Origin: Spirochaetae bacterium HGW-Spirochaetae-1
GTDB lineage: Bacteria > Spirochaetota > UBA4802 > UBA5550
NCBI GenBank assembly: GCA_002839375.1
Contig: PGXY01000012.1
Coordinates: forward strand, 8,430 to 72,429
Direction of reading: 5' to 3'
DNA: 64,000 nucleotides
A model generated the notes under the pieces. That model did no database searches. It saw only the letters and a program-made list of their open reading frames with translations, and was not told where the DNA came from. A program made the position numbers and the translations under genes. Below, piece after piece: positions 40,863-52,871 of the stretch (position 1 is its first letter; each line of letters starts with the position of its first letter).

Positions 40863-43800
40863 TCATTCCTTCCCGGCATTGTCTTTTCCGTATTCCAGGC
40901 GGGAAAGCAGGCTGTATGCTGCGGGAACTACTACGAGGGTCAGGACCGTTGAAAAAATAACGCCGCCCAGTACTGCAACTGCCATGGGTATGCGCGATTC
41001 AGCACCGGGACCAACGGCAATGGCAGGCGGGATGGCCGCTGCAATGGTTGAGAGTGTTGTCATTACGATCGGTCGCAGCCGGACCGGGCATGCCTTGAGA
41101 AGCGCCTCTTTCACGCTGAGACCCTCGTGACGCATCTGGTTGGTGAATTCGACAAGCAGAATAGAATTCTTTTTCACCAGACCCATGAGGAGAATGAGGC
41201 CTATGAAACTGTACATGTTGATCGTCTGACCGGTTATTACGAGAGCTATAATCGCGCCGGTGAAACTGAAGGGAAGAGCAAGCAGCACGGTGAAGGGATG
41301 GATATAACTGTTGAACTGACTGCCCAGGATCATGTATGCCACTATGATTCCGATTATGAGGGCAAAAGTCAGGCTGGAAAAGGATTCCCCTGATGTTTTG
41401 GCGGTACCAGTCACATCGACGCGATATCCTTCCGGCAGCATTTTTCGGGCCATGGTAATGGCATAATTAAGCGCTTCCTGCTGTGACGATGTTGGAGATG
41501 GATTGGCGTAAATGGTTATGGACCTGGCACGATTCACGCGGGAAATTGACAGCATTGACCGTCGTGACACGACATCAACGACCTCCGAGAGCCTGACCAG
41601 TTCCCCCCTGTTATTCCGTACAAAGATTTTTTTTATGTCATTGATTTTCCTGCGGTCCGTATCCGCCAGGCGTATGCGGATGTCATAGCGATGACCTCCT
41701 TCGGTAAATTTCCCGATAATTTTACCGCCTATCATGGCGCCAACGGCATTACCGATACTGGTCATGCTGACACCCCGTTCTTCAGCGGCAATGCGGTTGG
41801 GGATGATATTTATCTCCGGCTGTCCGAGATCGTAACTGGTATCCACATCAACCATTTTACCGGATTTTTTCATTTCATCGGCGATTTTCGTGCTGTAGTC
41901 ACTCAGCCTGTCCCAGTCGGGGCCCTGTACTACGAATTCAACGGGATAACCGCGTGAAGCGGAAAACCCCCTCATGGACAAGTCCTGAATCGATATTTTC
42001 ATTTCATCGATGTATCTTTCCGCCTGTTTCCGGATATCGATCATGACATCGTTCTGCGAACGGCGCTTGCCGGTTTTGGGGTCCACGGGGCGATCTTTCG
42101 GCTGTTTGAGGTTGACGAAGATCATAGCACTGTTTGTTTCTCCTCCACCAAAACCGCCTACGGCACAGTATATCGATTTTACATCGTTGATGGATCGAAC
42201 GAGGGTCTCAATTTTTTTTGTGGATTCGTCTGTGACCGAGATTGAAGACCCCACGGGCGTTTTTAAACGTAATATGAACTGGCTCTGGTCCATAGCCGGA
42301 ATGAATTCCTTCTTTACCATCCCGAGGAGTAGAAGGGAAGAAAAGAAAATTGCTGAAGCGGTGATAATGACAGTCCAGCGGTGATCAAGAGTGTAGGCCA
42401 GGGCTTTGTGGTAAGCGACTGACAAGGCATCGAAAGCGCGGTTGACACCGCGGTTGAGTATGCTGTTGCGTTTGTTTATTTCAAGAAACTGGGAGCAGCG
42501 CATGGGGGTGAGCGTCAGGGCTTCGAGGAGAGAAAGAATTACCGCGATTGATATGGTGACGCCGAATTCAAGAAAATATTTTCCGATGATGCCCGACATG
42601 AAGGCGACCGGAAGAAAAATAGCTATAATGGCCAGTGTCGAAGCCAGGGCGGCAAAGGTGATCTGACGGGCCCCGTTACCGGCGGCAATTACCTTGTCCT
42701 GTCCCATTTCACGATACCGCGTAATATTTTCAAGTACCATGATGGCATCATCGACTACCACGCCGATTACCAGAGAAAGGGCCATGAGCGTAAACGTGTT
42801 GAGCGTGAAACCGGCAAAGTACAGCACGATGAAAGTGCCGAGCAGCGAAGTGGGTATTGCGAGAATGATGTTGATGGTCGAACTGAATGAGCCGAGAAAC
42901 AGGAAACATACGAGACTGGTCAGGATGGTGGAAAGAAAAATAGTAAAGACAAGTTCGCTCGTGGAATCCTTGATAAAACGGGTCATATCATTTGTTATCT
43001 GGAGTTTATATCCTTTGGGAAGCTGGGGATTCAGCGTATCAAGGAGCTTCCTTACATCGTCGGCTATGGCAATGGCATTTGATTTCCTCTGCTTTATGAT
43101 GCCGAGACCGATAGCGCGTTCGCCGTTAAATCGTGATATTCTCCGAATGTCGTCAAGGTTATCTTCTACACGCGCCACATCCTTAATAAGAATCCTGCTG
43201 AATACAGGCGAGCCGCCCCTGAGGGTTATGGGCAGGTTCGCGACGGCGTCGACCGTGTAGGCCTCTCCCAGGGACCGTATAACAAATTCCTGTCCCGTGG
43301 TTTCCATCCTGCCGCCGGGAACTTCTACATGCTCCCGTCCTATGGTGTTGATAATATCGTCTACCGTGAGGTCATAGAGAGACAGTTTGTCTTTATCAAC
43401 CCAGATACGCAGGTTGCGGTCTACATATCCGCCAAGCCTAACATCGGCGACGCCGGAAATTGTCTGGAATTTGTCCCGGAGTTCGTATCGGGTGAAGACC
43501 ATCATTTCTTTTAAAGGACGGTCTGATGTAAGGGCGATCCACATAATGGGAAAATCCTCGGGGTTCCGTTTGCTGATTATGGGAGGATCAATATCTTTGG
43601 GCAGGAGACGCTGCGCCTGGGCGATCTTTGTCTGGACTTCCTGGAGAGCAACGTCAACATTGCGATTGATATCCAGCTCCACGGTGATACTGGTTGAACT
43701 GTCCCTGGATGTCGAACGGACTTCCTGTATGCCTTCAACGCTCATAACCGCATCTTCAATCACGTCGGCAATGTCGGTTTCCATTATTTCCGAAGAGGCC

Positions 43801-43958
43801 CCTTCGTATGTAACGTTGATATTCACTACAGGAAAGTCCACGTCGGGAAGCTGGGATATTCCCATCCGATTATAGGAAATCAACCCGAAGAGCATGAGAC
43901 CTGCCATGAGCATCCATGCGAAAACGGGATTTTTTATCGATATATCCGATATGCTCAT
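40863..43958 (-). CDS. RND-family efflux transporter (HAE1/AcrB-like)
   Basis: A 1031-residue inner-membrane pump with 12 membrane segments and two large periplasmic loops. LSLVIGVVVDDAIMVLENIT holds the conserved aspartates of proton transfer, and the N-terminal ISIKNPVFAWMLMAGLMLFG is typical. The length fits the hydrophobe/amphiphile class. It is encoded with a TolC-like gene (4-bp overlap), but no membrane-fusion protein is seen next to them, so the third part must come from elsewhere. The exported compound cannot be told. Confidence 0.94.
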   Translation of the reverse strand: MSISDISIKNPVFAWMLMAGLMLFGLISYNRMGISQLPDVDFPVVNINVTYEGASSEIMETDIADVIEDAVMSVEGIQEVRSTSRDSSTSITVELDINRNVDVALQEVQTKIAQAQRLLPKDIDPPIISKRNPEDFPIMWIALTSDRPLKEMMVFTRYELRDKFQTISGVADVRLGGYVDRNLRIWVDKDKLSLYDLTVDDIINTIGREHVEVPGGRMETTGQEFVIRSLGEAYTVDAVANLPITLRGGSPVFSRILIKDVARVEDNLDDIRRISRFNGERAIGLGIIKQRKSNAIAIADDVRKLLDTLNPQLPKGYKLQITNDMTRFIKDSTSELVFTIFLSTILTSLVCFLFLGSFSSTINIILAIPTSLLGTFIVLYFAGFTLNTFTLMALSLVIGVVVDDAIMVLENITRYREMGQDKVIAAGNGARQITFAALASTLAIIAIFLPVAFMSGIIGKYFLEFGVTISIAVILSLLEALTLTPMRCSQFLEINKRNSILNRGVNRAFDALSVAYHKALAYTLDHRWTVIITASAIFFSSLLLLGMVKKEFIPAMDQSQFILRLKTPVGSSISVTDESTKKIETLVRSINDVKSIYCAVGGFGGGETNSAMIFVNLKQPKDRPVDPKTGKRRSQNDVMIDIRKQAERYIDEMKISIQDLSMRGFSASRGYPVEFVVQGPDWDRLSDYSTKIADEMKKSGKMVDVDTSYDLGQPEINIIPNRIAAEERGVSMTSIGNAVGAMIGGKIIGKFTEGGHRYDIRIRLADTDRRKINDIKKIFVRNNRGELVRLSEVVDVVSRRSMLSISRVNRARSITIYANPSPTSSQQEALNYAITMARKMLPEGYRVDVTGTAKTSGESFSSLTFALIIGIIVAYMILGSQFNSYIHPFTVLLALPFSFTGAIIALVITGQTINMYSFIGLILLMGLVKKNSILLVEFTNQMRHEGLSVKEALLKACPVRLRPIVMTTLSTIAAAIPPAIAVGPGAESRIPMAVAVLGGVIFSTVLTLVVVPAAYSLLSRLEYGKDNAGKE

Positions 43959-45343
43959 TTTGACTCTTCCGAATTTTTAAGTATGGATATGCCCCGGCCC
44001 GACAGCTCGTTGACGGCGATACCGCAGCGAATCCTGTCCAGGCGGTGCTGGAGCACGATCCGGGCGTAATCATTGCGCGCGTTCTGCAGTGATTCCAGTG
44101 TTGTCAAAACATCAAGAATGGTAACCAGGTTCAGCCTGTACTCGTTCATTATCACTTCATGGTTCCGTTCCGAGGCATCCAGGGCCTTCCGGTAACTCTC
44201 AGTTTCAGCAAGGGAACCCTTCCAGGCCTGGAACGAATCGCGTATCTCTCTTTCAGCATCTTTCCGTTTTGCCGCAAGATTCAGTTCGGCCTGCCGTTTA
44301 ATAGAAAAACGTTCTTCAACACGGCCGGGAACTTCACCGGCCAGAAGTGGAATTTCAAATCCCAGGGCCCCATAATACTCGGAACCGGAATTGGGGCTTT
44401 CCTGATAGAGCCGGTAGGCTCCTTCGAGGTACACGGAAGGAAATTGACCTCCTGCCGAGGCCCATATATTGGCCTGGGCAAGCTTTACCCTCTCAATTTC
44501 AGCCTTGATATCCCAGCGGTTCTCCACCAGGGGATTGATAGGGTCAGGTATTTCTGCAGGGTCGTGCAGATCACTTCCTTCTATCAATACGGCATCGACG
44601 GGAATACCGGCAAGAGCGTGAAGCTCCAGCCTGCACCGCATAAGCTCGCTTTCAAGGGCCCTGATCGTGGCCTCGATACGGTAGATTTTCTCACTGGTTC
44701 TCAGCAGGTCGCTTCTGCGGCTTTTTCCCACGAGGACCCGGCGGTTCAGTTCCTGCATTGTCTTGAGGTACAGGTCACGAATTTCATTGCTGTTTTTTAA
44801 TGACTTTTCAAGCTGGAGGATATGGAAAAAGCAGTAAGCCGTGCTGTCGAGAAGAGCTCCCGCACTGTTTGCCAGCTCATACCGCGCAATGGCTGATTCA
44901 TAACGGGCGTTTTTAAAAGCCGTTATTTCATCGAGACCGGTGATGATGGGCTGCCGCGCGTAAAGGCTGATACTTGTCTGCTGCGTAGACGATGATTGAT
45001 TGTCGGGTTCAAGGAAGATAACATTCCCCTTTATGGAAATACGGGGAAGAACTGACCCAATGGCCTGATGTTTCCGGGAACGGGCCTGGAGCAGAATTTC
45101 ACGGGCTGCGGGAAGCTGCTGGGAATTATGGACGGCCAGGGCATACACATCGAAGAGAGTCAATTCAGTCTTAACAGAAGCGATTTTGATGTCGTCGGCG
45201 CTTATGCCGCTCACTTCATTGATGACTTCCGCCGTACCCATGATTGAGCCCGTTAACAGAAATGCAAAAAGCAGGCAGGTTTTTTTCCCCGCTCTTTTCA
45301 CGGCAATTCTGTTCCGGATTTTAGTGCTCGATACATTCTTCAT
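43955..45343 (-). CDS. TolC-like outer-membrane efflux protein
   Basis: A 462-residue outer-membrane factor with a long N-terminal export signal (about 20-40, LLFAFLLTGSIMG). Two repeated coiled-coil halves follow (TLFDVYALAVHNSQQLPAAR in the first, helical DSFQAWKGSLAETESYRKAL in the second). Trimers of this family form the outer channel of RND and ABC pumps. It is first in an operon with the RND pump. The usual membrane-fusion partner is missing upstream; the 254-bp gap up to 45597 holds no gene. Confidence 0.92.
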   Translation of the reverse strand: MKNVSSTKIRNRIAVKRAGKKTCLLFAFLLTGSIMGTAEVINEVSGISADDIKIASVKTELTLFDVYALAVHNSQQLPAAREILLQARSRKHQAIGSVLPRISIKGNVIFLEPDNQSSSTQQTSISLYARQPIITGLDEITAFKNARYESAIARYELANSAGALLDSTAYCFFHILQLEKSLKNSNEIRDLYLKTMQELNRRVLVGKSRRSDLLRTSEKIYRIEATIRALESELMRCRLELHALAGIPVDAVLIEGSDLHDPAEIPDPINPLVENRWDIKAEIERVKLAQANIWASAGGQFPSVYLEGAYRLYQESPNSGSEYYGALGFEIPLLAGEVPGRVEERFSIKRQAELNLAAKRKDAEREIRDSFQAWKGSLAETESYRKALDASERNHEVIMNEYRLNLVTILDVLTTLESLQNARNDYARIVLQHRLDRIRCGIAVNELSGRGISILKNSEESK

Positions 45344-45597: not shown

Positions 45598-46149
45598 CTA
45601 TTTTTTGTCCCGGCTGAAATAGAGGTGGGGGGAATTGTTGAAAACGCGGTCTTTTACCGTAAAAACCGTGAAGGGTTTTTTGATATGCTGGTGAAAAAGG
45701 ATGTCATGGCCCAGGCAAAGGCCTATTTCAATAACCAGGCCGGCATCGCTTTTATTTATGGTCTCGGCCTGTCCGATGGGATTGCAGGACACCGAGTCTC
45801 CCAGGGAATCGACAATATCCTTTTCCCTGAGCCCCTGGATGGTACACCGGAAAGAGGAAACGGAAAAACCTTTTTCGGTAAGAAAGGCGTGTACATCACG
45901 GGCAAGTGGTTCCAGGCCGTAGCAGTAGGCCAGGGCTATGTGTTTATATCCCTGTTTTTCGGAAAATTCGGCTATTTCTTCAATGCGCGACAGGGTTCCG
46001 GCGCGCCCGCCGGCCACGAGGCTGTCGGCATCGGCGTATAGCCTGGAAATATTCTCATCATGATATTTCCGGAGCGTGGATTGACCTTCACCGGTGCAGT
46101 CCACGCTTTTTGCTTTACAGGCTTTTGAATTGCAGTTAACGCAATTCAA
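45598..46149 (-). CDS. DUF1847 Cys-rich protein
   Basis: A 183-residue protein of the DUF1847 family. It opens with MNCVNCNSKACKAK and a further Cys near 18 (SVDC), a likely metal-binding cluster. A Rossmann-like middle follows (YKHIALAYCYGLEPLARDVH), and late cysteines lie in VSCNPIGQAE and GLCLGHDI. DUF1847 proteins are predicted metal-binding proteins of anaerobes with no known reaction. Its start overlaps the thioredoxin/reductase gene by four bases, so it is last in the radical SAM operon. A role in thiol or metal handling of the operon's product is inference. Confidence 0.85.
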   Translation of the reverse strand: MNCVNCNSKACKAKSVDCTGEGQSTLRKYHDENISRLYADADSLVAGGRAGTLSRIEEIAEFSEKQGYKHIALAYCYGLEPLARDVHAFLTEKGFSVSSFRCTIQGLREKDIVDSLGDSVSCNPIGQAETINKSDAGLVIEIGLCLGHDILFHQHIKKPFTVFTVKDRVFNNSPHLYFSRDKK

Positions 46150-47450
46150 TGAGAAGCACTCTCGTTTTCAATATCCCGCTCGGCCGCGATTGCGGCAATG
46201 GTTCCATCGGCAACAGCAGTGGTGATCTGGCGGTATCGCTTGCTCACTACATCACCGGCTGCAAATATCCCCGGTATGCTGGTATGCATCTGGTCGTCGA
46301 CCTTCACGTATCCCCACTCATCGAGTGCCAGTTTATCGGAAAAACCGCTCAGGTTGGGTTTCATGCCGGCGAAGATAAAGACGCCGTCGGCGTGCATCGT
46401 TTCTCTTTTGCTGTTTTTCAGGTTTTCCACCGTGACGGTCATTGTTCCGTCCTCATTGCGGACAAAGGCTCGGGGTTCATGTTCAAAAATGAATTCAATT
46501 TTTTCATTGGCAAAGGCCTTTTCCTGGGCTACCTTGTTGGCCTGGAGCTTGTCGAACTGGTGGACGATGGTAACCTTTCGGGCGAACTTTGTGATGAAAA
46601 GCGATTCCTCCACGGCACTGTTGCCGCCGCCGATAACGATGACATCCTTCCCTTCAAAATATTTGGCGTCGCAGGTGGCGCAGTAGGATATGCCCTGTCC
46701 CTTGTATTCTATTTCTCCCGGCACACCCAGCTCGCGGTACGCCGAGCCCGTGGAGATGATGATCTTTTTGGCTTTTATGGTCTCGAATCCGTCGACGAGA
46801 ATGGTTTTGCCCGTCATGTCAACATCGGACACATCCACGGCGGCCCGGAGCATCATCCCGGCGTTTTTTGCCTGTTCGTTCATGTAATGCATGAGCATGA
46901 ATCCCTCTATGGGTTTTTCAAAACCGGGATAATTGGAAACCATGTGCGTCGTAGTTACCTGTCCTCCCGTGAGGGCAATATCAACCATGATGGTTTTAAG
47001 TTTCGCCTGGGCAGCGTAAATGCCGGCCGTGAGGCCCGAAGGCCCGCCTCCCAGGATGAGCACATCACATTCCGTGGTGACGGGTTTTATCTTTGCATGA
47101 ATTTCCTTAACACGTGCAGGAGCGAGCATGCCGTCGAGCTGCTTCACCAGGTCGGAGCGTTTTATCCCTCCCATGAGGCGGGGGCCCGCTTCTTTTCCGT
47201 CCTTGTAAAAGAGTACCGTTGGGGAACCGGTCACTTTCAGGCCCTCGGCAAGGCCGCGGTTCTCCTGGCGGAAAATTTTTATGAAGGTAATATCATCGCC
47301 GTACAATTCACTGAGCGGTTCATACTTTGCGGCCAGGGCCTCGCAGGGCGGGCACTCCGATGAATAGAAGTCCACTACCACGGTACCATTCTTGAGCACC
47401 TTCTCTTCCCAGTCTTCGGCCTTGATATACAATATTTTTTCAGACATCAC
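46146..47450 (-). CDS. Thioredoxin-thioredoxin reductase fusion
   Basis: A 434-residue fusion. Residues 1-105 are a thioredoxin domain with the active-site pair in SECPPCEALA (Cys33, Cys36). Residues 125-434 are a low-Mr thioredoxin reductase, with FAD loop DVLILGGGPSGLTAGIYAAQ, redox pair CATC at 257-260, and NAD(P) loop VIVIGGGNSAVEESLF. The CPPC in the thioredoxin is a variant of the usual CGPC. Such fusions occur in a few bacteria and allow electrons to pass within one chain. The gene overlaps the radical SAM gene by four bases. It could keep the peptide cysteines reduced or supply electrons to the maturation enzyme. Confidence 0.93.
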   Translation of the reverse strand: MMSEKILYIKAEDWEEKVLKNGTVVVDFYSSECPPCEALAAKYEPLSELYGDDITFIKIFRQENRGLAEGLKVTGSPTVLFYKDGKEAGPRLMGGIKRSDLVKQLDGMLAPARVKEIHAKIKPVTTECDVLILGGGPSGLTAGIYAAQAKLKTIMVDIALTGGQVTTTHMVSNYPGFEKPIEGFMLMHYMNEQAKNAGMMLRAAVDVSDVDMTGKTILVDGFETIKAKKIIISTGSAYRELGVPGEIEYKGQGISYCATCDAKYFEGKDVIVIGGGNSAVEESLFITKFARKVTIVHQFDKLQANKVAQEKAFANEKIEFIFEHEPRAFVRNEDGTMTVTVENLKNSKRETMHADGVFIFAGMKPNLSGFSDKLALDEWGYVKVDDQMHTSIPGIFAAGDVVSKRYRQITTAVADGTIAAIAAERDIENESASH

Positions 47451-48766
47451 ATAACTCCTTTTTCGTAGTATAAAGATATTCCCATTTCCAGCAGCCTGTC
47501 AACGGGCCTGCAGTCAGGGGACTGAATATTCCCGGTTTTGTTTTTTGCCACGGCAGCACATCCGCCTCCGCAGATCAGCTGCAGGGAACACTGGCGGCAT
47601 TCCGGTATGGACGTCACGTCACGTTCCTCCCAGGTTTCAATTATATCAGCTTTTAATGTTTTTTCAGGATAATATGAACCTACTTCTTCGCCGGCCTTGC
47701 CCACATTGGCAGTGCAGGGATAGATTTTTCCCGTGTAATCGAAGGACCATTCCGTCTTGCAGCCGGGACAGGAATCAAAAAGTGGATCGGGAAGCTCGCC
47801 GTTATCATAAAGAAAACGCGTAACCGAAAAGGCGGGCCGGTGGAATTCTTTGATCTGGGGATGTTTAAGCATGAGGTTGTAGATTTCTTCATAGAGGCTT
47901 ACCCGGTCGTAGAGACGAATACTGTTGGCCTGGCAGTGGTGGAGCTCGTAATTCCTGCCCAGTTGTGTTTTAAACAGGGGATTGCCCGTCCAGCCCCTGT
48001 CAACGGCAAAGGAGGCCAGGGCGGGGAGGTCGCCAATATTCTCACTGTCCAGGACCATGCGCAGGTTGATAGGTAATCCCGCCGTCAGGGCCGCGTCAAT
48101 GCCCTGGACTATGCGGTCAAAGGTTCCCTGGCCGTTTTTCAGGGCGCGGCGCCGGTCATGGACTTCTCTTGTGCCGTCCAGGGTAACCTGGACTTCCCTG
48201 ATCGGGGTTTTCGAGGATGAAAGCATATCCACGTAGTCTATAAGATTATAACCATTGGTCACAATGGCGATGCCCGTATTGCTGCGGCCGGCATGGTCAA
48301 GTATCATGGCCAAATTATTCCGTGATGCCTGGTCGGGGAGAAGGGGCTCGCCGCCGAAGACGGTGATATATTTTTTCCGCCCGGCGAATTCGCTGTTCAC
48401 ATAATTGAAAAAGGCCTCGATTATATCTTCGTTCACGCCCGTGTGCTGCCAGGCGTATTCATCCTGGTAGCAGTATGAACAGGCGAAGTTGCAGGCATAC
48501 TGGGGAACGAAGAATATCTGTATCTCGGAACTGTCGCGCCCGTCTATAAAGTCGAGATAGCTTTTTCGGTAGAGTTTATTCTCTTCCTCTTCATCGATGA
48601 GGTAGCCCTTGGCGATATATTCGTCGATATCGCTGTAGCTGCCCCGGGATATTTCATCGGCTTTTTCCGGCGTCAGGATGTCGGCATTGCGGCTCAGGGC
48701 GTTAAGAATGAAATAATTCCCGGAGCCCTTTATTTTTGATACGATGTTATATTTTGAAAAATTCAT
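47447..48766 (-). CDS. Radical SAM/SPASM peptide-maturase-like enzyme
   Basis: A 439-residue enzyme. An N-terminal part of about 75 residues (SGNYFILNALSRNADILTPE, DEYIAKGYLID) resembles the precursor-binding leader domain of RiPP maturases. The radical SAM cluster motif is C92-x3-C96-x2-C99 (ACNFACSYCYQ), followed by FGGEP and the substrate-strand VTNGYN. A SPASM-type C-terminal domain carries many cysteines (CPGCKTEWSF, KIYPCTANVG, CRQCSLQLICGGGC). I start at ATG 48766 behind GAAGGAAACT rather than an upstream ATG, because the upstream extension runs through the peptide gene's region in another frame. It lies 53 bp after the small Cys-rich peptide gene, across a terminator-like hairpin, the usual order for peptide and maturase. 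Confidence 0.9.
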   Translation of the reverse strand: MNFSKYNIVSKIKGSGNYFILNALSRNADILTPEKADEISRGSYSDIDEYIAKGYLIDEEEENKLYRKSYLDFIDGRDSSEIQIFFVPQYACNFACSYCYQDEYAWQHTGVNEDIIEAFFNYVNSEFAGRKKYITVFGGEPLLPDQASRNNLAMILDHAGRSNTGIAIVTNGYNLIDYVDMLSSSKTPIREVQVTLDGTREVHDRRRALKNGQGTFDRIVQGIDAALTAGLPINLRMVLDSENIGDLPALASFAVDRGWTGNPLFKTQLGRNYELHHCQANSIRLYDRVSLYEEIYNLMLKHPQIKEFHRPAFSVTRFLYDNGELPDPLFDSCPGCKTEWSFDYTGKIYPCTANVGKAGEEVGSYYPEKTLKADIIETWEERDVTSIPECRQCSLQLICGGGCAAVAKNKTGNIQSPDCRPVDRLLEMGISLYYEKGVM

Positions 48767-48782
48767 TATCAGTTTCCTTCTA

Positions 48783-48813
48783 AAAATCAGCTGCGGGTTT
48801 GCACCCGCAGCTG
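48783..48813 (-). terminator. Attenuator-like terminator between peptide and radical SAM gene
   Basis: On the minus strand CAGCTGCGGGT and ACCCGCAGCTG form a perfect 11-bp stem with a four-base loop GCAA, followed by ATTTTTA. It lies just after the peptide stop codon. Partial termination here would give more peptide than enzyme transcript, as in many RiPP operons. Confidence 0.7.
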
Positions 48814-48819
48814 ACCGTG

Positions 48820-48915
48820 TTAGTCGTGGCAGCCGGCTACGATGCTCGAAATCTTCGCGCAGCACTGCGCTACCTGCTGATCGGAATCAGCCTTTTTTTG
48901 AATCAGTGACTTCAT
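48820..48915 (-). CDS. Cys-rich 31-aa peptide, probable RiPP precursor
   Basis: A 31-residue frame with an excellent ribosome site (AAGGAGATACAA before ATG at 48915). The N-terminal half (MKSLIQKKADSDQQVAQ) is charged, like a leader. The C-terminal half (CCAKISSIVAGCHD) holds three cysteines, at positions 18, 19 and 29, and ends H-D. It stands between an ArsM-like methyltransferase and the radical SAM/SPASM enzyme, on the same strand, and is followed by a terminator-like hairpin. The Cys residues would be candidates for thioether bonds or metal binding. Too short for most gene finders. I do not recognise it as a known precursor family; a mere upstream regulatory leader peptide is possible but less likely. 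Confidence 0.7.
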   Translation of the reverse strand: MKSLIQKKADSDQQVAQCCAKISSIVAGCHD

Positions 48916-48947
48916 TTGTATCTCCTTATTGTTAAATAAGTGCGTTG

Positions 48948-49583
48948 TTATTTGTAACCCCTTATGGTGAAACTCGAAACCTCTATTTTCCCCTTGGGAT
49001 AGGGTGCGCTTTCTTCAATTATTTCAATGTTGTCAAATCCGGCATCCCTGAGCTGTTCCATGTATTCATCACGCGTCACGGAACCGGCCCAGCATTCGGC
49101 CACGGCCACGGGATCGTTGCGGTGCTCTTCGGGCACCGGTTCCGATGAGTAAATGTCGCTCACGACAAAACGGCCTCCCGGTTTCAGGACACGGAATATT
49201 TCCTTCCAGACACGGTTCTTGTCGCGGGCATGGTTGATGGTGCAGTTCGATATGACCAGGTCAAGATGATCATCGGCAACAGGTATTATTTCCAGTTCAG
49301 ATTGGAGAAACCGCACGTTGTTCACATCGAATTTTTCAGCGTTCTTCCTGGCTTTCTCGATCATACCGTCGGAGACGTCGAGTCCGTAGACGAAACCGTC
49401 GGGGCCTGTCATATCGGCGAGGCGCAGCACGTCGTTTCCGCGGCCGCTGCCCATATCCAGGCATATTTCCCCTGTCTGCGCATTTGTATAATTGATGGCA
49501 CCTCCGCACGAGAGACAGCAGTTGCTCTCGGCCAGTGAGCTGTACCGTTTGTTGATCTGGCCCAGTATTTTAACGTTTTCCAT
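48948..49583 (-). CDS. ArsM-like SAM-dependent methyltransferase
   Basis: A 211-residue class I methyltransferase. The SAM loop is ICLDMGSGRGNDVLRLADMT, then ISNCTINHARDKNRVWKEIF and LKPGGRFVVSDIYSSEPVPE. The pattern SNC-x-I-N, and a Cys in AECWAG, match positions of the arsenite-binding cysteines of ArsM. An N-terminal CCLSCGG adds a Cys cluster at residues 22-26. ArsM methylates arsenite. Here it lies in an operon with a Cys-rich peptide and a radical SAM enzyme. It may methylate arsenic, another thiophilic element, or the peptide itself. The start follows the MarR gene by seven bases. Confidence 0.82.
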   Translation of the reverse strand: MENVKILGQINKRYSSLAESNCCLSCGGAINYTNAQTGEICLDMGSGRGNDVLRLADMTGPDGFVYGLDVSDGMIEKARKNAEKFDVNNVRFLQSELEIIPVADDHLDLVISNCTINHARDKNRVWKEIFRVLKPGGRFVVSDIYSSEPVPEEHRNDPVAVAECWAGSVTRDEYMEQLRDAGFDNIEIIEESAPYPKGKIEVSSFTIRGYK

Positions 49584-49590
49584 ACTTGCC

Positions 49591-50004
49591 TTACTCCATG
49601 GAATGCAGCAGGATATTCAGCGCCTTTTTCACTGTCTCAATATCGCCGGCATTTATCTTTGATCTGATTTTATCTTCGCATATCTTCTTTACTTCTGCAA
49701 TCTTCTTTTTTGCTTCCATGCCTTTCACGGTTAAGGATATCTCGATATAGCGGCGGTCATCTTCAGCGGGTCTGCGGTGCAGATACCCTTTCTGGATAAG
49801 CCGGTCCACGATCCTGCTGATGCGCGAGGCTGAAAGATTCATCCTCTCCGACAGGGAATTGGAATTGATTTCCTCATATTCTTCCAGTGACAGGAGCAGG
49901 GCCGATTCACGGGAGGAAAGTCCCAGGTCAGCGCCGAATTCATCGAGGAGGGAATTGCATCGTTCCTTCAGGTGGATGATGTTGTCGAGAATTGTCTCAG
50001 TCAT
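49591..50004 (-). CDS. MarR-family transcriptional regulator
   Basis: A 137-residue winged-helix protein. The HTH lies around INSNSLSERMNLSASRISRI and the wing around KGYLHRRPAEDDRRYIEISL. It is first in the radical SAM peptide operon, seven bases before the methyltransferase gene, so it most likely senses the signal that switches the operon. No cysteine is evident in the sensor part. A weak palindrome-like stretch (50022-50041) lies just upstream. Confidence 0.9.
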   Translation of the reverse strand: MTETILDNIIHLKERCNSLLDEFGADLGLSSRESALLLSLEEYEEINSNSLSERMNLSASRISRIVDRLIQKGYLHRRPAEDDRRYIEISLTVKGMEAKKKIAEVKKICEDKIRSKINAGDIETVKKALNILLHSME

Positions 50005-50188: not shown

Positions 50189-50923
50189 TTAATCAATATT
50201 ATAAAATTCTACTGGGTCGGAAATTTCAGACATAATTCCCTCACCATTACTTCCATAGATGGAGACACGGTAGTAATAAGTTCCTGGCGGGTAGGATGAA
50301 TCATAATAGGTTGATGAAGGATAGCCTGTATCAACAGGCTCTATCCCTGTCAGGGAATAAGGACCATTTGCTGATGTAGAACGATAGATACGGTATTCAG
50401 AGGCGTTACTGGCATCTACTGTATCAATCGTGATAAAATTATAAGTTCCTTCGGACCCGGCAAATATTTGAGTTATCGGTATCATCTTAAAGATGAGATA
50501 CGTTTCTTGACCGGCGGTCAACGTTACTGTAGCCTGAGCACCCCAGTTAATCCCTGAATCGCCATTCGCTGTAATTATAGTAAAAAGTCTTTGAGGGCCT
50601 GCTGGTATTTCAAAAGTAAATTCTGCTGATTCATCTGAAAAGTTCTCAGGCGTATATTCTATGGGCTCCATTCCTGATCCGGTTACTGTAATAGTTAATG
50701 AATCCGGTGTGTATGACCAGGCATAGGCCGGTGAACTGAAAAGCATGAGAAACCGGTCAATAAGCGATTTAGGCTTAACAATATGCTCTGCTGCGGCAGT
50801 ATTTCTGCCTTCGATGTGAATGGTAACAAGGGCTGTGTCTCCGGAGAAGCAGCCGGAAAAAACACATAACGTAACAAAAAGTAACACTAAGACCAAGATA
50901 GTCTGTACGCTTTTTTTCTTCAT
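50189..50923 (-). CDS. Lipoprotein of a tandem paralogous family (1 of 3)
   Basis: A 244-residue lipoprotein; signal with lipobox Cys in CVFSGCFSGD. After it come TALVTIHIEGRN, a helix-prone SLIDRFLMLFSSPAYAW, a beta domain ending VTLTAGQETYLIF, and a C-terminal FN3-like domain (EYRIYRSTSANGPYSL, TYYYRVSIYG). The same order occurs in the next two genes, so all three come from duplication. A surface-binding role is likely. I start at 50923 behind GGGACAGAG, because the longer frame has no signal. Unknown function. Confidence 0.8.
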   Translation of the reverse strand: MKKKSVQTILVLVLLFVTLCVFSGCFSGDTALVTIHIEGRNTAAAEHIVKPKSLIDRFLMLFSSPAYAWSYTPDSLTITVTGSGMEPIEYTPENFSDESAEFTFEIPAGPQRLFTIITANGDSGINWGAQATVTLTAGQETYLIFKMIPITQIFAGSEGTYNFITIDTVDASNASEYRIYRSTSANGPYSLTGIEPVDTGYPSSTYYDSSYPPGTYYYRVSIYGSNGEGIMSEISDPVEFYNID

Positions 50924-51148
50924 AACTCTGTCCCTTTGTGTGAATAGATCATAACTTATGAATAAATATATTTTTGCATGAAATTTGTAAAGCAAAAATA
51001 TGTTGTGTGGCATTCACATTAAAATCATGTTTCAGGCAAGTCAATCCCTGTGATACGCAAAGATATAGGAGAGTGGGCAGGCAGTGCCTTTTACTGCCAT
51101 GAATAAAACCTTGATGGAAGGCAGATAAATAAGAAAAATTAATCCGTG

Positions 51149-51874
51149 TTACTTGGCTGGAAAGGGATTACTCTGAGGATCAGTGGGCAATCCTTCTCCA
51201 TATTCTCCAATTACTGTAACTTTGTAGAAGTATGTATCAGATGGTGACGTGGAATAGTCGTATATCCAGCATTCTTCTTCACAGTTCCCCAAAATATGAT
51301 TGGCTACAAAAGTATAAGTCCCTTCTCTGGTATTTGATCGATACAGGCGGTATCCCAGAGCATAGGGGGATGCATTACCGAAACGCACACTCATATACTC
51401 CCCGTTGTTATATACTTCTGTCAAGGCTGTAACAGGAATCATTTTCATGACAATATTTGATTCCTGTCCCGCTGTCAGTGAAACACTGCTTCGCCCTAAC
51501 CATGTTACTGAATCTTCATATTCAAAACACGCCAAAGTAATTTCACGGTTCAATCCTGCTGGAATCTCCAGACTGACTGATGTAGTCTCGGGGGTAATAG
51601 AATCAAGCATGATCGTTTCCATGTCGGGAGCTGTTATGGTTAAAGAATATCTTTCCCTGTCATCGCTCCAGGCATAGGCCGGAGAACTAAAAAGCATGAG
51701 AAATCGCTCAATAAGAGATTTTACCTTAAGAGGATGTTCGGCTGCGGCAGTGTTTCCGCCCTGGATGTGAATAGTCACAATTGCCGTGTCGCCGGAGTAA
51801 CAACTAATGAAAGAAAAAGCTATAACGAGGGACATGCAAATAGTAAGAGCTATTAATACTATTTTATTTCTCAT
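51149..51874 (-). CDS. Lipoprotein of a tandem paralogous family (2 of 3)
   Basis: A 241-residue lipoprotein with lipobox Cys in FSFISCYSGD and the same segments as its neighbours: AIVTIHIQGGN, SLIERFLMLFSSPAYAW, SVSLTAGQESNIVMKMIPVT and an FN3-like end with YRLYRSNTREGTYTF. It is closest to copy 1 in the N-terminal half. The start at 51874 stands behind GAGGATAAA. Unknown function. Confidence 0.8.
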   Translation of the reverse strand: MRNKIVLIALTICMSLVIAFSFISCYSGDTAIVTIHIQGGNTAAAEHPLKVKSLIERFLMLFSSPAYAWSDDRERYSLTITAPDMETIMLDSITPETTSVSLEIPAGLNREITLACFEYEDSVTWLGRSSVSLTAGQESNIVMKMIPVTALTEVYNNGEYMSVRFGNASPYALGYRLYRSNTREGTYTFVANHILGNCEEECWIYDYSTSPSDTYFYKVTVIGEYGEGLPTDPQSNPFPAK

Positions 51875-51940
51875 AAAATTTATCCTCATTAGGGTTAAAT
51901 TCTTCATACAGCTATGTTCCCGAATCAATTATTTTATGAA

Positions 51941-52663
51941 TTAATTTGGCATGCCTGAAACAGCATCACTCAATACCCCCAGACCGTCAGCGTCGCTTTC
52001 TATGGCAATTTTATAATAATATGTTGTTCCATATGTTACATCATAATCATAGTAAAAACCTGTAGAATATGTTGAAATTGTTGTTATTTCATTATAAGGA
52101 CCATTGATATTTGTCGATCGGTAGAGTATATAACGGGAAAAATTATACTGACCACCAATGATTCCCCATGTGACAGTAAGCTCTGTTGAACCTGAAGCAC
52201 TATAAATTGCAGTTTTTGGTATCATTTTTATTGTTACATTTGCTTCCTGTCCTGCCGTGAGACTTACTGTTGCTTGGCCGCCCCAGACATCATATCCCCA
52301 TGTGGAATTATATGCAGTAACAGTAAAATGACGATTCAAACCAGCGGGCACTTCTATGCTGAATTGAGTAGTACCGGAAGCGATGGGTGTCAAGGGAATG
52401 GTTTCCATGTCAGGCCCTGTGACGGTGTAACTTAAATTATCACGAATGTCCTCCCAACCTCCGGCATGGGCAGGAGAACTGAATATTTCCAATATCCGGT
52501 CTATGAGTGGTTTAGTCTTTTCCTGTTTAAATGCAGCCAGGTCGTTCCTCTCCAATCTTATAGTTACGATGGCCATGTCGTCATTAAAACAATTGGTGAA
52601 GAGGGCGGCAGCGGCAATTATAATAGTGCTGATTAAAATAGATGATATCGTTTTTTTCTTCAT
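51941..52663 (-). CDS. Lipoprotein of a tandem paralogous family (3 of 3)
   Basis: A 240-residue lipoprotein with lipobox Cys in ALFTNCFNDD. MAIVTIRLERND, PLIDRILEIFSSPAHAG, TVSLTAGQEANVTIKMIPKT and YILYRSTNINGPYNE follow in the same order as copies 1 and 2. It is the most divergent copy. The start at 52663 stands behind GGGAGTG. Unknown function; extracellular binding through the FN3-like end is only inferred. Confidence 0.8.
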   Translation of the reverse strand: MKKKTISSILISTIIIAAAALFTNCFNDDMAIVTIRLERNDLAAFKQEKTKPLIDRILEIFSSPAHAGGWEDIRDNLSYTVTGPDMETIPLTPIASGTTQFSIEVPAGLNRHFTVTAYNSTWGYDVWGGQATVSLTAGQEANVTIKMIPKTAIYSASGSTELTVTWGIIGGQYNFSRYILYRSTNINGPYNEITTISTYSTGFYYDYDVTYGTTYYYKIAIESDADGLGVLSDAVSGMPN

Positions 52664-52871
52664 ATTTACACTCCCAGTGACAATATATGATATGTGTGAT
52701 ATGGCATCGTTACATTTGTAAAGTATAAAACGCTTTGTCCTGTTTAAATATACTAACTCCACAAAAGAAGAAAAGTGTAATTTTTTTCTTTTGTGGAGTG
52801 ACTATTGCATAAATAAATATATGCAAATTAGTATTGCTGCAGGTATACTTTTACCGGGAGTCTACACTTTG

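Follow-up and report, generated by a model that had tools for sequence, protein, structure and literature searches.

A candidate RiPP-type cassette linking a short cysteine peptide and a radical SAM/SPASM enzyme to an ArsM-like methyltransferase and a thioredoxin-thioredoxin reductase fusion

SPASM-type radical S-adenosylmethionine (SAM) enzymes that mature ribosomally synthesized and post-translationally modified peptides (RiPPs) include CteB (PDB 5wgg, 5why), CefB (NF038107), TIGR04463, PapB (NF047865) and the Clo7bot maturase. Here we analysed a 64,000-nucleotide stretch (the window) of contig PGXY01000012.1 from Spirochaetae bacterium HGW-Spirochaetae-1, in which a cassette encodes a radical SAM/SPASM enzyme together with a 31-residue peptide, an ArsM-like methyltransferase and a fusion of thioredoxin (Trx) with a thioredoxin reductase (TrxR)-like domain. 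With the CteB-type maturases the cassette enzyme shares an N-terminal leader-binding-like region, a radical SAM barrel, seven SPASM cysteines and an adjoining gene for a short cysteine-bearing substrate; it differs in its precursor family, in a GRNYELHxCQ motif conserved in its own family, and in having the methyltransferase and Trx-TrxR as obligate partners. With ArsM and AS3MT, for which Trx/TrxR is a known supporting reductant, the cassette methyltransferase has in common the SAM fold and counterparts of the three As(III)-binding cysteines, whereas it is only 211 residues long, lacks the C-terminal domain, has an N-terminal CCxxC arrangement, and is tied to a peptide and a RiPP maturase and seldom to ars genes. 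An ArsM-type methyltransferase is also paired with a radical SAM enzyme in the arsenosugar (ArsM-ArsS) and arsinothricin (ArsM-ArsL) pathways; to our knowledge, ArsS and ArsL are not SPASM peptide maturases and neither pathway has a precursor peptide. Finally, the low-molecular-weight thiol systems (glutathione, bacillithiol, mycothiol) have a dedicated reductase for a conserved intracellular thiol and are proposed here as an analogy only, as the thiol of the cassette would be ribosomally encoded and post-translationally modified.

The locus consists of six packed open reading frames on the minus strand (45598-50004), with all frames and distances as described in the initial annotation (spacings of 7, 32 and 53 bp, then two 4-bp overlaps), and the Pfam domains of their products are MarR, Methyltransf_31, Radical_SAM, Thioredoxin plus Pyr_redox_2, and DUF1847. 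The core is limited to four of these genes, those for the methyltransferase, the peptide, the radical SAM/SPASM enzyme and the Trx-TrxR fusion. A MarR gene beside the cassette is limited to the order of the window's genome and a small number of other genomes, and the DUF1847 gene is present at 22 of about 88 loci. Control by MarR and participation of DUF1847, both put forward initially, are therefore not supported as general features, the former being confined mainly to near relatives and the latter to about a quarter of loci.

The candidate precursor peptide and its radical SAM enzyme

The precursor, MKSLIQKKADSDQQVAQCCAKISSIVAGCHD, has 31 residues with cysteines at positions 18, 19 and 29 and lies behind an AAGGAG ribosome site, all as first noted. 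Loci of the radical SAM enzyme numbered 89. Public species genomes supplied 80 of them (149 candidates; largely Bacteroidales, with Neomarinimicrobiota, Kapaibacterium and Myxococcota in addition; 54-60% identity), and 8 belong to the family and order of the window's genome (56-66% identity). A short frame ending A(Q/L)CCAKxSxxxxGCHD-stop is found at 87 of the 89, with 82 distinct sequences, and among these main-clade peptides A16, C18, C19, A20, K21, S23, G28, C29, H30 and D31 are identical throughout. Over the 87 genes the 16-codon core has a pN/pS of 0.125, and its codon-position entropy is 1.38 at the third position compared with 0.26 and 0.35 at the other two. The peptide gene is real and under strong selection, and chance conservation is ruled out; the drift or loss of the frame beside radical SAM homologues, which the initial annotation had named as evidence against its own proposal, is not what these loci display. 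At the other two of the 89 loci, L030 and L039, neither the peptide nor the methyltransferase is encoded locally, and in their genomes the radical SAM-TrxR pair stands apart from a methyltransferase-peptide pair at another place.

A survey of 393 genomes of the same phylum with a peptide profile and a radical SAM profile (E up to 1e-120) gave matches in 37 and 31 genomes, respectively. The peptide is present in 30 of the 31 radical SAM genomes, the remaining one being cut by a contig end, and in the extra peptide-bearing genomes the radical SAM gene is cut or more diverged. The cassette thus has one hallmark of a RiPP system, an encoded precursor beside the gene for a modifying enzyme, the two being conserved jointly (87/89 loci; 30/31 genomes). 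Furthermore, all phylum loci uncut by contig ends contain methyltransferase, peptide, radical SAM enzyme and Trx-TrxR, in two gene orders, which bears out the proposal that the redox fusion and the ArsM-like methyltransferase belong to the system. The pairwise distances of these three enzymes correlate at 0.88-0.93 (88 loci). In a diverged branch the radical SAM enzyme is only 35-41% identical and the order in much of the branch is TrxR-methyltransferase-peptide-radical SAM, and the core is still AQCC(A/S/T)Kx(S/T)xxxxGCHD; in one genome (G048) the parts are dispersed over about 7 kb. The peptide is rare in a Bacteroidota-wide sample (5/296). Frequent accessories in Bacteroidales are DUF1847, Trx, DUF6132 and DUF302, and a Pfam scan of flanking operon genes revealed no further constant partner. 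Carriage on plasmids was considered and rejected, as plasmids gave only distant radical SAM relatives (27-28%).

The N-terminal MKSLIQKK is probably a leader and AQCCAKISSIVAGCHD the core segment. Between the peptide and radical SAM genes lies a hairpin, TCAGCTGCGGG-tgcaaa-CCCGCAGCTGA, with a 14-bp stem (about -26.7 kcal/mol) followed by T5, an arrangement that would fit expression of the precursor above that of the enzymes. Of the 60 loci where such an element could fit, 20 have a similar hairpin/T-run, whereas mononucleotide shuffles predict 0.4, and the hairpin is probably a partial terminator favouring precursor expression. A promoter scan gave no excess over chance. The hairpin and T-run, together with the CC codons, would also suit a cysteine-sensing attenuator, in which the small frame is a leader and the hairpin ahead of the radical SAM gene is controlled by ribosomes stalled at those codons. 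However, the non-cysteine residues (A, K, S, G, H, D and the N-terminal MKSL) are equally conserved, a gap of 14 nt or less between the peptide and radical SAM genes at 19 loci leaves no room for a terminator, and in the L030 and L039 genomes the peptide follows the methyltransferase, distant from the radical SAM gene; we regard attenuation as extremely improbable.

The radical SAM enzyme starts at the ATG at 48766, where its homologues begin; for this reason we discarded the GTG at 48865, a start that would make the gene overlap the peptide. The CxxxCxxC motif and the SPASM-like end reported initially are both found, and their cysteines, including all seven of SPASM (C333, C351, C390, C393, C399, C403 and C419), are invariant in 111 sequences. 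The SPASM spacing (C333-X12-G346-X4-C351, C390-X2-C393-X5-C399-X3-C403, then C419) fits CX9-15GX4C-gap-CX2CX5CX3C-gap-C. In the AlphaFold2 (AF2) model (pLDDT 90.6), the best match is the ranthipeptide maturase CteB, with residues 4-437 aligning to 5wgg 1-450 (Z 27.6 over 394 residues; Foldseek E 9e-18). The predicted model therefore has the fold of a CteB/PapB-type ranthipeptide maturase over its whole length, including a leader-binding-like N-terminal part (strands 7-11, 18-22 and 27-31, then helices). Its scores are far below all NCBIfam cut-offs (PapB, 104 versus 340 bits; SCIFF, 89 versus 425; CefB, the best, 140 versus 600), and none of the radical SAM enzymes of the cassette attains one. 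Together, the CteB-like fold and these low scores suggest that the enzyme works like a RiPP maturase yet fits none of the named families, an assignment in which the structural part comes from a model.

This architecture bears on two other explanations. The three invariant cysteines and the C-terminal His-Asp of the peptide could be direct ligands of As(III) or a metal, so that the peptide might be an unmodified cysteine-rich metalloid carrier, a mini-metallothionein for the methyltransferase, with the radical SAM substrate elsewhere. We consider this quite unlikely, given the RiPP-maturase architecture with its CteB-like N-terminal region and the almost one-to-one co-occurrence of radical SAM enzyme and peptide. 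The relatedness of the enzyme to the CefB, PapB, Clo7bot and SCIFF maturases could instead point to a bacteriocin-like ranthipeptide or sactipeptide used in competition. Against this, the core is near-invariant over phyla, no exporter, leader peptidase or immunity gene is constant beside the cassette across loci, and the methyltransferase and reductase would be left unexplained, which makes such a role very unlikely. The near-invariant core and the missing constant export, peptidase and immunity genes speak for a cofactor or ligand and against an antibiotic, by analogy with pyrroloquinoline quinone (PQQ) and mycofactocin.

The methyltransferase and reductase partners

The methyltransferase matches the CmArsM structures in phmmer with an E value of 1.6e-24, and its C26, C114 and C164 align with C72, C174 and C224, the As(III)-binding cysteines of CmArsM (PMC3877260). 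These three are the only invariant cysteines among 97 methyltransferases, in agreement with the ArsM-like cysteines noted at the outset. We interpret the protein as ArsM-like with a predicted As(III) site; it is short and under the ArsM cut-offs (see below), and hence is not a proven ArsM. Most Bacteroidales methyltransferases end in cysteine-rich tails (CCCC, CGCGCKN or CACGCGS, for example at L013 and L012), and the window's protein has no such tail.

In the fusion, the CPPC thioredoxin joined to a CATC thioredoxin reductase that was originally reported is present, and the active-site cysteines are kept in 107 of 107 sequences. In about 100 of the 107, HQFDxLx stands in place of HRRxxxR, the NADPH phosphate-binding motif. 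The GxGxxA nucleotide motif is kept as GGGNSA; with CATC and GGGNSA present and HRRxxxR lost, the fusion does not conform to an NADPH thioredoxin reductase. Clostridia TrxBs without NAD(P)H motifs are regarded as ferredoxin-dependent (PMC10880999). Since GGGNSA is retained, NADH and ferredoxin are both possible electron donors for the fusion.

Arsenic or sulfur

We put the chances at about even that the locus is a cassette of the RiPP type, with a thiol peptide that does not diversify, probably stays inside the cell, and acts together with an arsenite-type methyltransferase and its own reductase. From the RiPP system proposed initially this keeps the conserved pair of precursor and radical SAM enzyme, for which no described class was found, and drops MarR and DUF1847 as general parts. 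In this scheme, the short precursor would be made in excess of the enzymes via a leaky terminator, and the radical SAM enzyme would bind its MKSL(I/V)KK leader through the CteB-like N-terminal region and modify the AQCCAKxSxxVxGCHD core, most likely by at least one cysteine cross-link. Because the core does not diversify and there is no dedicated exporter, the product would probably serve inside the cell as a thiol cofactor or ligand and not as a toxin. The methyltransferase would hold As(III) or a similar thiophilic element in its ArsM-type three-cysteine site and methylate it, with the peptide as carrier or co-thiol, and after each cycle Trx-TrxR would restore the dithiol form of the peptide, the methyltransferase or both.

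Several observations, among them the invariant cysteine triad of the methyltransferase, are consistent with an arsenic-type role. Outside the window's order, 15 of 27 module genomes carry acr3, compared with 78 of 320 others (p 0.001), whereas the control selD is not enriched (p 0.40). Genes of the ars type adjoin the module in L148, L015, L083, L086 and L165, most clearly in L148, which has an ArsR-ArsP-ArsM-Acr3-ArsC island. Trx, TrxR and glutathione support AS3MT in vitro (PMC9013690). As 30 of 37 module genomes have no glutamate-cysteine ligase homologue, a replacement co-thiol is plausible. A number of points weigh on the other side. The methyltransferase is short, without the C-terminal ArsM domain, and scores below the ArsM cut-offs (PRK11873, 201.7 versus 263 bits); just 5 of 116 loci have ars genes close to the module; a GCS2-type glutamate-cysteine ligase homologue is encoded in the window's own genome; the acr3 enrichment, uncorrected for phylogeny, may reflect habitat, genome size or relatedness; and the accessories in Bacteroidales (DUF302, YgaP-TM, SQR-like, TauE and OsmC) look more sulfur- than arsenic-related. 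We hold an arsenic-type role, in the sense of a thiophilic element, with moderate confidence, and a sulfur redox role is its main rival. A more specific proposal, in which the modified peptide thiol, served by a flavin reductase of its own, is a dedicated cofactor or carrier when arsenic or another thiophilic element is methylated, as an encoded counterpart of glutathione or even as a peptide carrying arsenic in its final form, is possible but on balance doubtful.

In the sulfur alternative, the same RiPP cassette would make a sulfur redox carrier, such as one for sulfane sulfur or a disulfide couple, for anaerobic sulfur metabolism, and the methyltransferase would act on a thiol or persulfide, arsenic not being the natural substrate. 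The obligate dedicated reductase suits such a carrier, as do the Bacteroidales neighbours (Trx, DUF302, a YgaP-like transmembrane protein, an SQR-like flavoprotein, TauE, OsmC, Sulf_transp and a Cys/Met pyridoxal phosphate enzyme). However, the methyltransferase has no invariant cysteines other than the exact As(III) triad, acr3 is enriched in module genomes, and no sulfur gene is constant over lineages; we therefore treat the sulfur carrier as a tentative and rather unlikely explanation. A selenobiotic-type radical SAM peptide, a kind attributed to Haft and Basu, was rejected, as no paper was found, no NCBIfam model matches and selD is not enriched. Separately, selD of the window's genome (G000:C1:297760-298683) reads through one in-frame TGA, and its SelD probably contains selenocysteine.

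No description of the gene set or of the peptide string was found in the literature, of which subscription journals were scarcely covered, so that an earlier description is possible. The peptide motif is absent from a survey of Bacteroidales RiPPs (PMC10352776), and an NCBIfam search with 42 peptides gave no match to any model at E values up to 1. Gene finding meets its lower size limit with a precursor this short, and the annotation models searched do not recognise it, which probably leaves the system hidden in most genomes. Of the genomes sampled from one phylum, about 9% have the cassette, which is also present in further phyla, Bacteroidota and Myxococcota among them. Its carriers are distantly related and mostly uncultured bacteria, one cultured example being Carboxylicivirga linearis FB218 (locus L063). 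If the preferred interpretation is right, a near-invariant RiPP core tied to an arsenite-type methyltransferase and a reductase would join RiPP chemistry and metalloid biochemistry and suggest a ribosomal route to a thiol cofactor.

Features and neighbours of the locus

The features of the cassette are collected in Table 1. The AF2 model of the DUF1847 protein is Rossmann-like, comparison with the PDB gave no match below E 0.001, and DUF1847 was dropped as a clue to function.

Table 1. Positions of the cassette genes and their elements in the window
Feature	Position	Strand	Basis or remark
MarR-family regulator	49591..50004	minus	Pfam MarR; lineage-restricted, not core
ArsM-like methyltransferase, 211 aa, core	48948..49583	minus	phmmer against CmArsM structures; invariant Cys triad
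Precursor peptide gene, 31 aa	48820..48915	minus	conservation at radical SAM loci and purifying selection
Probable core segment AQCCAKISSIVAGCHD, residues 16-31	48823..48870	minus	ten positions identical in 82 distinct peptides
Hairpin and T5, probable partial terminator	48782..48814	minus	between peptide and radical SAM genes
Radical SAM/SPASM predicted peptide maturase, 439 aa, core	47447..48766	minus	Pfam Radical_SAM; AF2 model; CteB match
Radical SAM N-terminal region, residues 1-80	48527..48766	minus	aligns with leader-binding part of CteB
CxxxCxxC radical SAM cluster motif (C92, C96, C99)	48470..48493	minus	invariant in 111 sequences
SPASM cysteines C333-X12-G-X4-C351, CX2CX5CX3C (390-403), C419	47510..47770	minus	invariant in 111 sequences
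Thioredoxin (CPPC) N-terminal to thioredoxin-reductase-like domain (CATC), core	46146..47450	minus	Pfam; active-site Cys
DUF1847 protein, accessory	45598..46149	minus	PF08901, E 5.5e-30

An RND efflux pump and a TolC-like outer membrane protein are encoded 254 bp downstream of DUF1847 (40863-45343, minus strand), and in other genomes no such pump consistently accompanies the cassette. Upstream, three tandem paralogous secreted or lipoprotein-like proteins of one unnamed family (274, 259 and 273 aa; 50189-52762, minus strand) are found, the first without a significant Pfam match. Elsewhere, a radical SAM homologue (G349:C1:1123414-1124715) has an in-frame TAG, for which a pseudogene, a sequencing error or recoding is possible. 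In 17 Bacteroidales loci an IS1595-type zinc-ribbon protein of 145 aa is encoded divergently from the cassette (in L050 about 2.1-2.5 kb upstream of the radical SAM gene, on the opposite strand), and it may be a transposase-derived regulator.

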